Assembly: GCF_026155325.1 (NCBI RefSeq)
Contig: NZ_JAPFPW010000003.1
Coordinates: 62,001 to 126,000, forward strand
Direction of reading: 5' to 3'
Origin: Desulfobotulus pelophilus
Lineage (GTDB): Bacteria > Desulfobacterota > Desulfobacteria > Desulfobacterales > ASO4-4
DNA length: 64,000 bases
Within the stretch, counting starts at the first letter, position 1. The number at the start of each line of letters is the position of its first letter. A program made the translations under genes and the position numbers. Positions 55,955 to 60,805 of the stretch are shown in pieces. The notes below the pieces were generated by a model, which did no database searches, had not been told where the DNA came from, and worked only from the letters and a program-made list of their open reading frames with translations.

Positions 55955-56788
55955 TCAGTTTCCGGGAAAGGTCCAGGAGCTTCCAACGGAAAGGGAGGTA
56001 ACCCTTTCTCCGAAAACCCGCCGGAGGTGTCCGTAGGCATGGATGCCTGTGCAGTGACCGATCATCATATGGTCAAAAGAAAAGTCTTTTAGCCCCGAAC
56101 TTACCTGATTCAATCGTTTTTCATCGGCCTGGCCCAGATGCAGACCACCGAGGATGGCATGAAAATGACGGCTTCCGGTGATGCCTGCCACGTGGGTAAG
56201 GGTGTTGATGATTCCCCTGTGGGTGCAACCCAGAATCAGCACCGTTCCCATGGCACTTTCCAGAATAAGGCCCATGTCGTCGGGCATGCTGTCGGGCTGA
56301 GCCGGTTCACCGGCAAAGAAGTAAGACTCAACCCTTTCCCAGTCTGTCACCATGGGGATTTCCCCAGTGGTGCGGATACCCGTCGAGAGAGGAAGGGATA
56401 TGGTTGACGTTTCGATCAGAAAGCCCCGGTTTCGGATTTCTTCCTCCGTAAACGGACAGCCGATGGGAATCAGCTGGCCGGGACCCCGTCCTGCCCATTT
56501 GGGTGCAAAGGCTGCCGGATGAGCTACCAGACGTTTGTTCTTTTCTCCGGCCTCAAAAAAAACAAGCCCGCCCGTATGATCATAATGGCCATGGCTGAGG
56601 ACAATGGTCTCCACTCTGGAAAGGTCTTTGCCCAGGGTACGGGCATTGGCACCAAGAACCATGCCCTGGCCCGTGTCAAAGAGGATGGAGGTTTCCGGTG
56701 TTTCCATAAGAAAGGAAAGTCCGTGTTCGCCCATAAGGGCCGCACCGGTTGCTGTGGTATTTTCGGCAAGAAGGGTAATACGGGTCAT
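55955..56788 (-). CDS. MBL-fold metallohydrolase
   Basis: This 277-residue metallo-beta-lactamase-fold enzyme carries the metal motif SHGHYDHTGG (His66, His68, Asp70, His71), with later His residues in LILGCTHRGIINT and MMIGHCTGIHA. This layout matches the subgroup that includes 7,8-dihydropterin-6-methyl-beta-ribofuranosylaminobenzene-phosphate synthase-like proteins. AGGAG lies five bases before ATG. It lies just downstream of the NifX/ATPase operon but is separated from it by a strong terminator at 56827-56863. The substrate is unknown. Confidence 0.85.
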   Translation of the reverse strand: MTRITLLAENTTATGAALMGEHGLSFLMETPETSILFDTGQGMVLGANARTLGKDLSRVETIVLSHGHYDHTGGLVFFEAGEKNKRLVAHPAAFAPKWAGRGPGQLIPIGCPFTEEEIRNRGFLIETSTISLPLSTGIRTTGEIPMVTDWERVESYFFAGEPAQPDSMPDDMGLILESAMGTVLILGCTHRGIINTLTHVAGITGSRHFHAILGGLHLGQADEKRLNQVSSGLKDFSFDHMMIGHCTGIHAYGHLRRVFGERVTSLSVGSSWTFPGN

Positions 56789-56874: not shown

Positions 56875-57207
56875 TTAGTGGTCGCAGAGGTTGACGCCTG
56901 TCTGGAGGGTATTTTCCAGATAATTGAGAACCAGTGTTTCCGGTGTTTCAGAGGGAGCACCCGTAAGGACACGGATACCTTTTTCCGCAAAAAGCTGCTG
57001 GGCTTTATGGCCCATACCTCCGGCGATCACAAGGTCTGCACCAAGGGATTCCACCCAACGGGGCAATACTCCGGGTTCGTGGGGAGGGGGAGTATGGCTT
57101 TCGGTTTTTTCAATTTTTCCGTCATTTACATAGACCAGGGCAAATTCCTGAACGTGGCCGAAATGAACCGCAAGTTTTCCTTCGGCAACGGGAATGGCAA
57201 CCTTCAT
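56875..57207 (-). CDS. NifX/NifB-C-like protein (dinitrogenase Fe-Mo cofactor domain)
   Basis: This 110-residue alpha/beta protein starts MKVAIPVAEGKLAVHFGHVQEFALV, the classic opening of the NifX/NafY family that binds Fe-S or Mo-containing clusters. ADLVIAGGMGHKAQQLF and a C-terminal CDH follow. No nif genes are present, so a nitrogenase role is unlikely. The context, with two ferredoxin-ATPases and a second NifX-like gene, resembles the orange-protein system. AAGGAG precedes ATG 57207. It is the last gene of the operon. Confidence 0.88.
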   Translation of the reverse strand: MKVAIPVAEGKLAVHFGHVQEFALVYVNDGKIEKTESHTPPPHEPGVLPRWVESLGADLVIAGGMGHKAQQLFAEKGIRVLTGAPSETPETLVLNYLENTLQTGVNLCDH

Positions 57208-57281
57208 AATCGACTCCTTGCATAGGGTGGGGTAAGGGGCATTGAATGCCATCATTATAGTGTTTTTGGGTCTGTTGCAGT

Positions 57282-57644
57282 TTATGCCCAGTGTCCTTCC
57301 ACGTTGGGGGCTGCGGTGGATGAAAGCTGTCCGTTTTTATAGTTCTGTACGGCATCGATCACCCTGCCGGAAGCATTGACCACCACTTCCAGACCCGCTG
57401 TTTTTAATACATCAAAGGCCTTGGGTCCGCAGTTGCCTGTGATAACGGCATCGGCCCCTGTGGATACGGCGATTTTGCCAGCCTGAATCCCGGCTCCCTG
57501 AGGTAGATTCAGATTCTGGGAGTTTTCCACCACGGAAAAATCCAGGGACAGGGTATCTACAAGAAGAAAGCAGGCAGCCCTGCCAAAACGGAGATCCAAG
57601 GGAGAGTCCAGTGTCGGACCTTGTGAAGAAACCAGTACTTTCAT
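57282..57644 (-). CDS. NifX-like protein, orange-protein (ORP) type
   Basis: This 120-residue protein has the same fold: MKVLVSSQGPTLDSPLDLRFGRAACFLLVD, then GADAVITGNCGPKAFDVLKTAGLEVVV. In Desulfovibrio, ORP of this family binds an unusual Mo-Cu-sulfide cluster; the Cys at position 72 here lies in the NCGPKAF segment. The ATG overlaps the stop of the upstream ATPase (ATGA), so the two are translationally coupled. The likely role is carrying or assembling a metal cluster handled by the ATPases. That is inference from family and neighbours. Confidence 0.87.
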   Translation of the reverse strand: MKVLVSSQGPTLDSPLDLRFGRAACFLLVDTLSLDFSVVENSQNLNLPQGAGIQAGKIAVSTGADAVITGNCGPKAFDVLKTAGLEVVVNASGRVIDAVQNYKNGQLSSTAAPNVEGHWA

Positions 57645-58564
57645 GATGCTGTCTCCTGTTTCAGAGATTTCATAGATACTATGTTATGCCCGTATGATTG
57701 TTCGGTTTTGTCCAGAAGGGCGGAAACCTCCTGCCATAGCAGGGTAAGGGCTTGGCCTGCAGGTCCGGTGGAGGTGTTTTTGCCTTCTGCCAGGGCTTTT
57801 GCCATGGCAGAATCAAAGGGTATGGGGGATAGCACAGAAATTCCTCGTTTTTCGGCTTCTTCTGTCATGGCATCGGCCACATCGGGGTTGAGGTCCCATT
57901 TGTTCAGGGTCAGGCAGACAGGGATCCGCATTTTCCAGCACAGGTCCGCAAGGCGCAGCATGTCGTGGCGGCCGGACAGGGTGGGTTCTGTGACCATGAG
58001 TACAAGGCTGGCCCCGGTTAAAGAGGCGATTACCGGGCAGCCGATGCCGGGGGGGCCATCCACCAGAATAAGGGGACGTTTTTCCTTTTCCGCCAGTTCT
58101 CCTGCTTTTTTACGTAGCAGGGAAACCAGCTTGCCGGAGTTCTCTTCGGCGATACCCAGCCTTGCATGGAGCATGGATCCTCCTGCACTTCTTGAAATAT
58201 ACCAGGTGCCTGATATGCGGGGTATCAGGCGGATGGCTCCGGAAGGGCAGAAATCATGGCAGATACCGCAACCTTCACAGTGTATGGGATCTATTACGGG
58301 TGGGAACCCTTCACGGATGGCACCAAAGGCACAGATGGCAGCGCAGGTACCGCAGCCTGTACACTGATCTGGTACGATTTCCGGAAGAATACCTCCGGAG
58401 AAAGTTTCTGAACTCCATTGTCTGTGGGGAACCACCAGATGCAGATTGGCCGCATCCACATCCGCATCCACGAGAATACGGGAAGGAGCGAGGTGAGCAA
58501 AAGCGGCGGTGACACTGGTTTTCCCCGTTCCTCCCTTTCCACTGAGAATAATGAGTTCTTTCAT
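57641..58564 (-). CDS. MinD/Mrp-like ATPase with inserted ferredoxin domain (second in operon)
   Basis: This is a 307-residue P-loop ATPase with a deviant Walker A, GKGGTGKT (9-16). A 2[4Fe-4S] ferredoxin domain is inserted after the second strand (Cys68, 71, 74, 78 and Cys96, 99, 102, 106), followed by DGPPGIGCPV and VTEPTLSGRHD. It is one of a matched pair like DVU2103/DVU2104 of the Desulfovibrio orange-protein complex. ATGA overlaps join it to both neighbours. It may use ATP to transfer an Fe-S or Mo-S cluster, as relatives Mrp/NBP35 do, or act spatially like MinD. Neither is proven here. Confidence 0.9.
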   Translation of the reverse strand: MKELIILSGKGGTGKTSVTAAFAHLAPSRILVDADVDAANLHLVVPHRQWSSETFSGGILPEIVPDQCTGCGTCAAICAFGAIREGFPPVIDPIHCEGCGICHDFCPSGAIRLIPRISGTWYISRSAGGSMLHARLGIAEENSGKLVSLLRKKAGELAEKEKRPLILVDGPPGIGCPVIASLTGASLVLMVTEPTLSGRHDMLRLADLCWKMRIPVCLTLNKWDLNPDVADAMTEEAEKRGISVLSPIPFDSAMAKALAEGKNTSTGPAGQALTLLWQEVSALLDKTEQSYGHNIVSMKSLKQETAS

Positions 58565-59421
58565 GCGGAGGCCCTTTTTTTTTCGATACCGGTTTGTCTC
58601 TGTATGGTTTCCCAGAGGCGGACAAAGGCTTTTTTGAGCTCAGGATCCCGGTCTATGAGTATGTCTCCCCTGGCATAGGCCTCGGCATAGGACCGGCGGA
58701 AGGGGATTTCCATGAAGATGGCAAGGTTTTCTCTGCGGGCGTAGTCCTGAATGAGAGTGTTGCCTTCCTCTGCCCTGTTCACCACGATGGCGCAGGGAAT
58801 GCCGAGATGTCTGGCGGTTTCTGCTGCGAGGGCAAGATCATGGAGCCCGAAGGGGGTGGGCTCGGTGACAAGGAGGACAAAGTCACAGTCCCTGATGGCA
58901 GCAATCATGGGGCAGGATGTGCCCGGAGGCGCATCGAGAATAACGGGCATGCCCGAAGGTGCCATATGGCGCACAGCTTCGATGAGGGGAGGGCTCATGG
59001 CTTCACCCACCCGCATTTCTCCCCAGATGAGCCTGTGGGGGCCAAAGTTACCGGAGAGTACATCTCCCAGGATGCGTTCTCCTTCGGCGATGGCATTTTC
59101 AGGGCAGATGCGCAGACACCCGCGGCAGGCGTGGCACATTTCCGGGTAGGTCATGAGCTTCCGGCCGATGATGACCAGTGCGGAAAACCGGCAGACAGAC
59201 TCGCATTTTCCGCAGAGCGTGCAGCGGTCTGTATCGATGCGCGGTACGAAAACCCCTTTCGGTGTGCGCAGGACATTTTCAGGCCTGGTGAAGAGGTGTG
59301 CATTGGGTTCTTCCACGTCGCAGTCCAGTAGAGTTACGGGACAGGGCGCGGAAGCAGCAAGGTTTACGGCAAGGGTGGTTTTACCGGTTCCGCCCTTACC
59401 GCTGGCTATGGCAAGTATCAT
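58561..59421 (-). CDS. MinD/Mrp-like ATPase with inserted ferredoxin domain (first in operon)
   Basis: This is a 286-residue paralogue of the next gene. Walker A GKGGTGKT lies at 8-15, and the inserted ferredoxin has Cys67, 70, 73, 77 and Cys96, 99, 102, 106, the same Cys spacing as its partner. DAPPGTSCPM and VTEPTPFGLHDLAL follow. The pair probably forms a heterodimer. ATG 59421 has AGGA about nine bases upstream; a start six codons earlier is less well placed. The stop overlaps the downstream ATG. The DUF134 regulator gene is 45 bases upstream. Confidence 0.9.
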   Translation of the reverse strand: MILAIASGKGGTGKTTLAVNLAASAPCPVTLLDCDVEEPNAHLFTRPENVLRTPKGVFVPRIDTDRCTLCGKCESVCRFSALVIIGRKLMTYPEMCHACRGCLRICPENAIAEGERILGDVLSGNFGPHRLIWGEMRVGEAMSPPLIEAVRHMAPSGMPVILDAPPGTSCPMIAAIRDCDFVLLVTEPTPFGLHDLALAAETARHLGIPCAIVVNRAEEGNTLIQDYARRENLAIFMEIPFRRSYAEAYARGDILIDRDPELKKAFVRLWETIQRQTGIEKKRASA

Positions 59422-59466: not shown

Positions 59467-59874
59467 TCATTCGGAGTGTTCGATCTCCGAATGGGTGCAG
59501 CGGGGACAGTGGGTAGGCCTGCCTTCTTCCTGAGGATGCTCAAAGGCTCTCTGGCAGGCAAGGCAGAGGAAATGCCGGACCTGTTTCAGGGTGTAGGTCC
59601 CTCCCTCAACACGGATTGCCTTGCCGTTGACCAGGGCATCCGCCGTGATTTTTCGGGCTTTCTGAAGAATTCGGCCGAAGGTAGCGCGGGAGACAGCCAT
59701 GCGTTCTCCTGCCTCTGCGTGGCTCAGATCTTCCAGATCCGCCAGGCGGAGGGCTTCCCGCTCATCTACGGTCAGAACCACCTCATCCAGATCCCGCAGA
59801 GGAATACCCCTGGGTTTAAAATAGCTGACTTCCGGCTGAGCTGTGACAATACGATTTTTTTTGGGCCGAACCAT
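59467..59874 (-). CDS. DUF134-family DNA-binding protein
   Basis: This 135-residue putative transcription factor opens MVRPKKNRIV, the DUF134 signature. Residues about 38-80 form a sigma-4-like helix-turn-helix (LTVDEREALRLADLEDLSHAEAGERMAVSRATFGRIL, abridged). A C-terminal zinc ribbon has Cys104, Cys107, Cys123 and Cys126. AGGAG lies five bases before ATG 59874. Its own promoter carries the palindrome TGAGCATATGCTCA at 59889-59902, a likely autoregulatory site. It heads the operon of ferredoxin-ATPases and NifX-like proteins, so it probably controls them. The known Desulfovibrio orp operons use a sigma-54 activator instead. Confidence 0.88.
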   Translation of the reverse strand: MVRPKKNRIVTAQPEVSYFKPRGIPLRDLDEVVLTVDEREALRLADLEDLSHAEAGERMAVSRATFGRILQKARKITADALVNGKAIRVEGGTYTLKQVRHFLCLACQRAFEHPQEEGRPTHCPRCTHSEIEHSE

Positions 59875-59888
59875 ACGTTCTCCTGATA

Positions 59889-59902
59889 TGAGCATATGCT
59901 CA
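59889..59902. promoter_or_regulatory. Perfect 14-bp palindrome TGAGCATATGCTCA
   Basis: This fully self-complementary site lies 15 bases upstream of the DUF134 start and about nine bases downstream of a likely -10, so it should cover the transcription start. That position fits repression of the DUF134/ATPase/NifX operon, most simply by DUF134 itself. I saw no second copy elsewhere in the window. Confidence 0.7.
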
Positions 59903-59910
59903 ATACTTAG

Positions 59911-59940
59911 GTCATAGTCTGATTCCCCTGCCTGCGTCAA
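59911..59940 (-). promoter_or_regulatory. Promoter of the DUF134 operon
   Basis: On the minus strand TTGACG (59940-59935), an 18-base spacer and TATGAC (59916-59911) form a plausible sigma-70 promoter. It is the only good match between the DUF134 gene and the divergent HD-domain gene. No GG-N10-GC sigma-54 element was seen here. Confidence 0.55.
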
Positions 59941-60046: not shown

Positions 60047-60805
60047 ATGCGGGGAGTATATCAAAAGATTCGGGAAATGGCCCGGGGCATCGTCCGGACA
60101 TCTCCTGAGCCTTCCTTTTACCGGGAATGCGGGGATGTGCTGGAACGCTCGATGGATTTTTTTGCAAACGATCCACGGGTGGTAAGAATTCATGATGCCG
60201 TATGTATGCTTCTGGCAGAAGACTGGGGTCATGGCATGGGGCATAGCCGCAAGGTCGCTGTGGAAGCAGGAGCTCTCATACTGATGGAGGGTAAAAAGCT
60301 GGGTCTGGGAAGTGGGGCTGCTCAGGAACGTATGGTGCGCCTGGCCCATTATGGCGGACTCCTGCATGATATCTGCCGGAAGGAAAAGGACCATGCGGAA
60401 AAAGGGGCTTTTGCTGCGGGCAGACTCCTTGAGGAAGAAGGGGTGCCGCGCCGGGATGTTCAGGCAGTGTGTGAGGCGATCCGAAGGCATGAGGCTTTCC
60501 GAATATATGCCGAAAGCCTGAACCCGGAAGCGGATCTTCTGGCGGCCTGCCTGTATGACGCCGATAAATTCCGGTGGGGGCCGGATAATTTTACCCACAC
60601 GGTCTGGGCCATGCTGGAGGCCGGCAGAGTTCCTCTTTCTGTTTTTGTGCAACGCTATCCGGAAGGTATTGCGGGCATTGCCCGTATACGGGAAACCTTC
60701 CGTAGTGAAATCGGCCGACGGTTCGGTCCGGAATTTATTGATATCGGCATGGGTATTGCCGCCAGGCTGTATGTTGCCATTCTGGAAAAATATGGCAGGG
60801 AATAG
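60047..60805 (+). CDS. HD-domain phosphohydrolase
   Basis: This 252-residue soluble protein has HD-superfamily metal ligands: His62/His66 in WGHGMGHSRKV, then His107-Asp108 in LLHDICRKEKDH and later DADKFRWG. Members hydrolyse nucleotides or phosphate esters, but the exact substrate is not readable. GGAGG lies four bases before ATG. It is divergent from the DUF134 operon across 172 bases and converges on minE, whose stop is ten bases away. Regulation by the shared intergenic region is possible. Confidence 0.85.
   Translation: MRGVYQKIREMARGIVRTSPEPSFYRECGDVLERSMDFFANDPRVVRIHDAVCMLLAEDWGHGMGHSRKVAVEAGALILMEGKKLGLGSGAAQERMVRLAHYGGLLHDICRKEKDHAEKGAFAAGRLLEEEGVPRRDVQAVCEAIRRHEAFRIYAESLNPEADLLAACLYDADKFRWGPDNFTHTVWAMLEAGRVPLSVFVQRYPEGIAGIARIRETFRSEIGRRFGPEFIDIGMGIAARLYVAILEKYGRE

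Follow-up and report, generated by a model that had tools for sequence, protein, structure and literature searches.

The stretch of Desulfobotulus pelophilus DNA analysed here (64,000 nucleotides, referred to as the window) contains a palindrome just before a gene for a DUF134 protein, raising the question of whether it is an operator and, if so, which protein binds it. The initial annotation, made from sequence alone, had described a fully symmetric palindrome before the DUF134 start and a TTGACG-N18-TATGAC promoter upstream of it, and had proposed a candidate DUF134 operator. Both observations held: TGAGCATATGCTCA at 59889-59902 is a perfectly symmetric 14-bp palindrome, and the promoter is present with its 18-base spacer, TATGAC matching the consensus at 4 of 6 letters (Table 1). 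The distances, given as nine bases after the promoter and 15 before the start codon, were each off by one; on the minus strand, 8 bases separate TATGAC from the palindrome and 14, GGAG included, separate the palindrome from the ATG (59874-59872). An alternative upstream TTG at 59940 is in the same frame, but a start there is disfavoured because the promoter would then sit within the gene, and the ATG at 59874, which matches the family N-terminus (MVRP), is the likely start. An HD-domain gene (60047-60805) is divergent from the DUF134 promoter.

Table 1. Features of the DUF134 locus in the window (positions are those of the window)
Feature	Position	Strand	Basis or remark
-35 box TTGACG of the DUF134 operon promoter	59935..59940	-	sequence; TTGAC upstream of the palindrome at a similar distance in 120/151 relatives with the site
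-10 box TATGAC, 18-base spacer	59911..59916	-	consensus match only; start point not mapped
DUF134 operator (predicted), 16-mer TTGAGCAT-ATGCTCAT	59888..59903	-	perfect 14-bp core 59889-59902; conserved pattern; covaries with the DUF134 recognition helix
Ribosome binding site CAGGAGA	59879..59885	-	sequence
DUF134 protein, 135 aa	59467..59874	-	PF02001, E 2e-24; AlphaFold2 model, pLDDT 95
MinD-type ATPase with 4Fe-4S insert (Orp3/Orp4-like), probably same operon	58561..59421	-	CbiA and Fer4 domains
Second MinD-type ATPase with 4Fe-4S insert	57641..58564	-	CbiA and Fer4 domains
NifX-type (Nitro_FeMo-Co) protein	57282..57644	-	PF02579, E 1.7e-19
Second NifX-type protein, resembles MrpORP C-terminal domain	56875..57210	-	PF02579, E 1e-15; NF041136 positions 265-365, E 1.8e-37
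Metallo-beta-lactamase-fold protein, last of the gene run; operon membership uncertain	55955..56788	-	PF00753, E 2.6e-12

The palindrome by itself is not beyond chance, as the window contains 8 perfect 14-bp palindromes against ~4 expected, and its significance rests on conservation. TGAGCATATGCTCA occurs as a single exact copy in the 3.66 Mb genome. A lack of conservation upstream of orthologous DUF134 genes would have refuted the operator proposal, but the palindrome is conserved there. The comparison used the upstream regions of DUF134 genes taken from this order and phylum, plus a small number from other groups. Both genomes of the same genus (L040 and L041) carry the identical 14-mer, whereas the spacer of the promoter has changed. 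Of the 214 DUF134 genes, 125 had a 16-bp palindrome ATGnnCAW-WTGnnCAT scoring at least 10 no more than 110 nt upstream; in the controls such a site turned up in 35 of 1070 dinucleotide-shuffled sequences and in 1 of 214 stretches taken from within the gene. At a score of at least 12, there were 49 sites in the 22 kb upstream of DUF134 genes versus 12 in 1.11 Mb of surrounding DNA. Most of the DUF134 genes sampled from the phylum are preceded by the pattern; no clear site was seen at ~60 of the 214 genes, including the PTVTR and STLQR helix classes, and operators sought for these two classes and for archaeal DUF134 members gave none that was convincing. The initial annotation had understated its case, since a large part of the family shares the operator, which in some cases also stands before NifX genes nearby.

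The window protein is a member of DUF134/UPF0251 (86.5 bits against PF02001, cut-off 27), and Pfam returned solely DUF134 and sigma region 4 models for it (Sigma70_r4_2, E 5e-8). It consists of a sigma-4/DeoR-like helix-turn-helix (HTH), with the recognition helix starting from residue 63 and reading residues 64-68 being ATFGR, and a C-terminal CxxC...CxxC zinc ribbon motif (CLAC...CPRC), from which zinc binding is inferred. The zinc ribbon pattern ends 109 of 213 members. In some members DUF134 is naturally fused to a NifX (Nitro_FeMo-Co) domain (L042, L087, L090, L095, L137, L139, L145, L206, L223, L237 and others); 16 of the 213 members were classed as such, six being confirmed by Pfam, and the fused domain may be a sensor. 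Sampling of genomes found DUF134 (UPF0251, COG1342) above cut-off in 171 of 242 from the same order and in 135 of 199 from a second phylum.

Solved structures searched by sequence included no DUF134 member, and the best match of the family profile was the DNA-binding domain of Bacillus subtilis DeoR (E 3.7e-5), a repressor of the SorC/DeoR subfamily (PDB 7bhy, PMC11229326). The AlphaFold2 model of DUF134 superposed on the DeoR-operator complex at 0.7 A over 38 residues, as well as on numerous region 4 domains of sigma factors; high-ranking Foldseek hits to MCM helicases were disregarded, as these align the zinc ribbon with an rmsd of 11-12 A. The HTHs of DeoR and DUF134 are related, and their half-sites have the same length and spacing. 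Of the features of SorC/DeoR family membership, the DeoR-like HTH is met and the ~250-residue sugar-binding effector domain is absent, DUF134 having only 135 residues. DeoR has a large sugar-phosphate effector domain and is a tetramer on DNA, whereas DUF134 carries a zinc ribbon or NifX domain and is inferred to be a dimer. Sigma-70-family region 4 (e.g., 2h27, sigma-E region 4 with -35 DNA) shares with DUF134 the Sigma70_r4_2 match and the structural superposition. Unlike sigma factors, DUF134 lacks region 2 (core binding, -10 reading) and other sigma parts, only region-4-like models matching, and whereas sigma region 4 reads the -35 element, DUF134 is inferred to read a symmetric site after the -10 box.

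We compared operator letters with the recognition helix, writing the half-site as ATG-N4N5-C-A-W and tabulating helix residues 64-68 against half-site positions 3-6 in 88 non-redundant genes. Positions 3-6 are mostly GAG(C/T/A) with helix ATFGR, GAGC or AAGC with QTFGR, GRTC with QTYGR, GAAC with PTFSR, GAAT with PTFHR, TGGC/TAGC with QTFGN, and GCTC with HTYGR/HTFGR. H64 goes with C4 in 7/7 cases, compared with 2/144 of the others, and N68 with T3 in 4/4. Site selection favoured G3, C6 and A7, leaving positions 4 and 5 free apart from symmetry; the T3 association is if anything understated because site choice favoured G3. The five-residue code is imperfect, four QTYGR half-sites, for example, having GAGC. 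A further class was noted, in which a GTVQR helix accompanies ATGTGCAT/TTGTGTAT palindromes (L234:3624, L240:3676, L247:4792 and L248), two of which precede a NifX-like gene (MKLCFPVE...).

Helix and operator are both shared among related genes; each five-residue window of the protein was therefore tested by partial correlation, correcting for identity over the rest of the protein. Residues 64-68 were the best of 93 such windows for operator similarity (partial r 0.374, median 0.038; 0 of 2000 permutations). Family trees pointed the same way, but support was too weak to count independent helix changes, so the partial-correlation test was used instead of a sign test. The letters of the operator covary with DUF134's own helix, which very probably singles out DUF134 as the binder and supports the proposal of the initial annotation, no binding data being available.

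The code agrees with the crystal structure of DeoR on its operator. DeoR helix R34-P-T-V-S-R39 aligns with DUF134 R63-X64-T65-F66-G67-R68, a numbering consistent with the R34-R39 spacing in PMC11229326. In the DeoR operator, ATTGAACAAAATTTCAAT, R39 contacts G4, at limited (3.7 A) resolution (PMC11229326); R39 aligns with DUF134 R68, and G4 is the same G as that at DUF134 half-site position 3. By analogy, this contact may explain why N68 goes with T3 in DUF134. The DeoR combination of R-P-T-V-S-R with TTGAACAA also resembles that of the DUF134 PTFSR class, R-P-T-F-S-R with ATGAACAT, at the same spacing.

The site also has a regular position relative to the promoter. Measured from TTGAC, the centre of the palindrome is at 37 in QTYGR-class genes and in most cases at 41-47 in the class to which the window protein belongs. 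The 16-mer mostly starts 0 to about 11 bases past the best match to the -10 box, overlying the expected start of transcription, a usual position for a repressor site. A second palindrome lies next to the -35 box, 51-56 bp further upstream, in six QTYGR genes and several of other classes. In QTYGR-class genes such as L091, L173 and L182, two palindromes ~53 bp apart flank the -35/-10 region, an arrangement that might reflect two dimers on one face of the DNA.

Sites were also examined beyond the phylum, where the code recurs, and at other genes. In Bacillota, the second phylum (that of L007, a Syntrophomonadaceae MAG), a GAAC-type site was found in 15 of 44 DUF134 genes with the SRPT helix (reversed controls 0, shuffle mean 0.25). 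GA-type sites were nearly as frequent among these genes (13/44), partly because many overlap the TTGACA box. One SRATF gene in this phylum has a TTGAGCAT-ATGCCCAA site. At L211 and L218 the H64 regulator lacks a matching site of its own, and the predicted ATGCTCAT-TTGAGCAA lies behind a TTGAC box before a NifX-type gene ~3.3 kb upstream of the regulator. Operators also precede neighbouring NifX-type or small glycine-rich genes at L086, L204, L208, L211, L218, L234 and L240; at L086 the class of the extra site mismatches the local helix, which may point to the action of a different DUF134 protein. At L204:4646, L208:1512 and L111:1335, small Gly/Arg-rich genes adjacent to DUF134 (MPRxDGTGPxGxGP...) each carry a separate TTGAC promoter with a DUF134-type palindrome.

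A search for a wider regulon in the organism's own genome found that all twelve one-mismatch TGAGNATATNCTCA copies lie in open frames consistent with coding and none at a promoter; with no distant target there, DUF134 therefore looks like a local regulator. Exact matches away from DUF134 in relatives were rejected as extra targets, being mostly coding or at contig ends. Four exact TGAGCATATGCTCA copies in one genome (G018, L250-L253) are at or near contig ends and probably belong to a repeat at which the assembly broke. In members with an AR(T/S)TVQ helix (L288, L300, L324, L325 and L326), a conserved hairpin, roughly AAATAACCGGAG-GACG-CTCTGGTTATTT, stands just upstream of DUF134; Rfam gave no match for it.

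The genes behind DUF134 resemble part of the Desulfovibrio vulgaris ORP (orange protein) cluster. The window shares with it the Orp3/Orp4-like MinD/ferredoxin ATPases, and its NifX-type proteins resemble Orp8 or the MrpORP C-terminal domain, so that the ORP feature of Orp3/Orp4-type ATPases with ferredoxin motifs together with NifX-type proteins is met; the MrpORP model matched the window well in its C-terminal part only. Among relatives with the same helix class as the window protein, 35 had sufficient sequence to judge, and in 32 of these a MinD-type gene follows on the same strand. The D. vulgaris orp operons are sigma-54 dependent, with the activator DVU2106 and IHF (PMC3897727), whereas the operon in the window has, by sequence, a sigma-70-type promoter and a predicted DUF134 operator.

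Conservation, geometry, helix-operator covariation, the predicted fold and agreement with the DeoR complex all support the reading that the palindrome serves as operator for the DUF134 protein whose gene immediately follows it, and that DUF134 is a dimeric autorepressor of its own operon. We consider this very likely (probability ~0.88), with binding, dimerization and repression all being inferred. In this model, a DUF134 dimer would set one recognition helix in each half-site (ATGAGCAT in the window's class), with residues 64, 67 and 68 choosing the bases at half-site positions 3-5 and R68 reading G3. Once bound, the dimer would lie over the predicted start of transcription from its own sigma-70-type promoter and block that promoter, thereby repressing an operon of DUF134, two MinD/ferredoxin ATPases and two NifX proteins. 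The signal can only be guessed at; metal or Fe-S cluster status, sensed via the zinc ribbon or, in relatives, the fused NifX domain, is a reasonable guess because so many members end in a zinc ribbon and some are classed as NifX fusions.

Among the alternatives, DUF134 might bind the palindrome as an activator or dual regulator and not as a simple repressor. Sigma-4-like heads can contact RNA polymerase, and in some QTYGR genes the second site lies just upstream of the -35 box, a frequent activator position. However, the common site begins right past the -10 box, where a bound dimer would block polymerase, and the promoters retain good TTGAC -35 boxes, leaving this alternative unlikely. It is less likely still that another regulator, controlling DUF134 operons, binds the palindrome. 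Many HTH families use palindromic operators, and a genome with no detected DUF134 (G028) has a similar site at a TetR-type gene, at the start of which TTGACA and TGAGTATATGCTCA were observed (L073:1501). Against this, the letters of the site follow the recognition helix of DUF134 more closely than they follow any other segment of that protein, and the helix-operator code fits the DeoR complex.

The palindrome could also form an RNA hairpin in the 5' leader, affecting, for example, translation or mRNA stability. It lies at the expected transcript start, and a short stem with a 4-base loop is possible. This explanation can practically be dismissed, however, as Rfam gave no match at the window site, the promoter distance is fixed in the QTYGR class, second copies upstream of the -35 box fall outside the transcript, and the palindrome covaries with an HTH helix.

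Autorepressors with palindromic operators are already known as a kind. What is likely new is the operator, the specificity code and a regulatory role for DUF134, a family without known function; the open-access literature searched held no paper on the function or target of DUF134/UPF0251/COG1342 or on the letters of the palindrome, most subscription papers and regulon databases being outside its scope. A bolder reading, which we would as readily expect to fail as to hold, is that DUF134 represents a large unrecognized family of metal- or Fe-S-cluster-responsive autorepressors of anaerobes, in which a DeoR/sigma-4-type head is joined to a zinc ribbon or NifX cluster-binding domain and controls ORP/NifX cluster-assembly operons via a decipherable residue-to-base code. 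The operator and the residue-to-base code make the widespread DUF134 proteins a testable transcription-factor family and provide a handle on the control of poorly understood ORP/NifX metal-cluster genes, and the DUF134 classes offer a natural series of specificity switches within one small protein.
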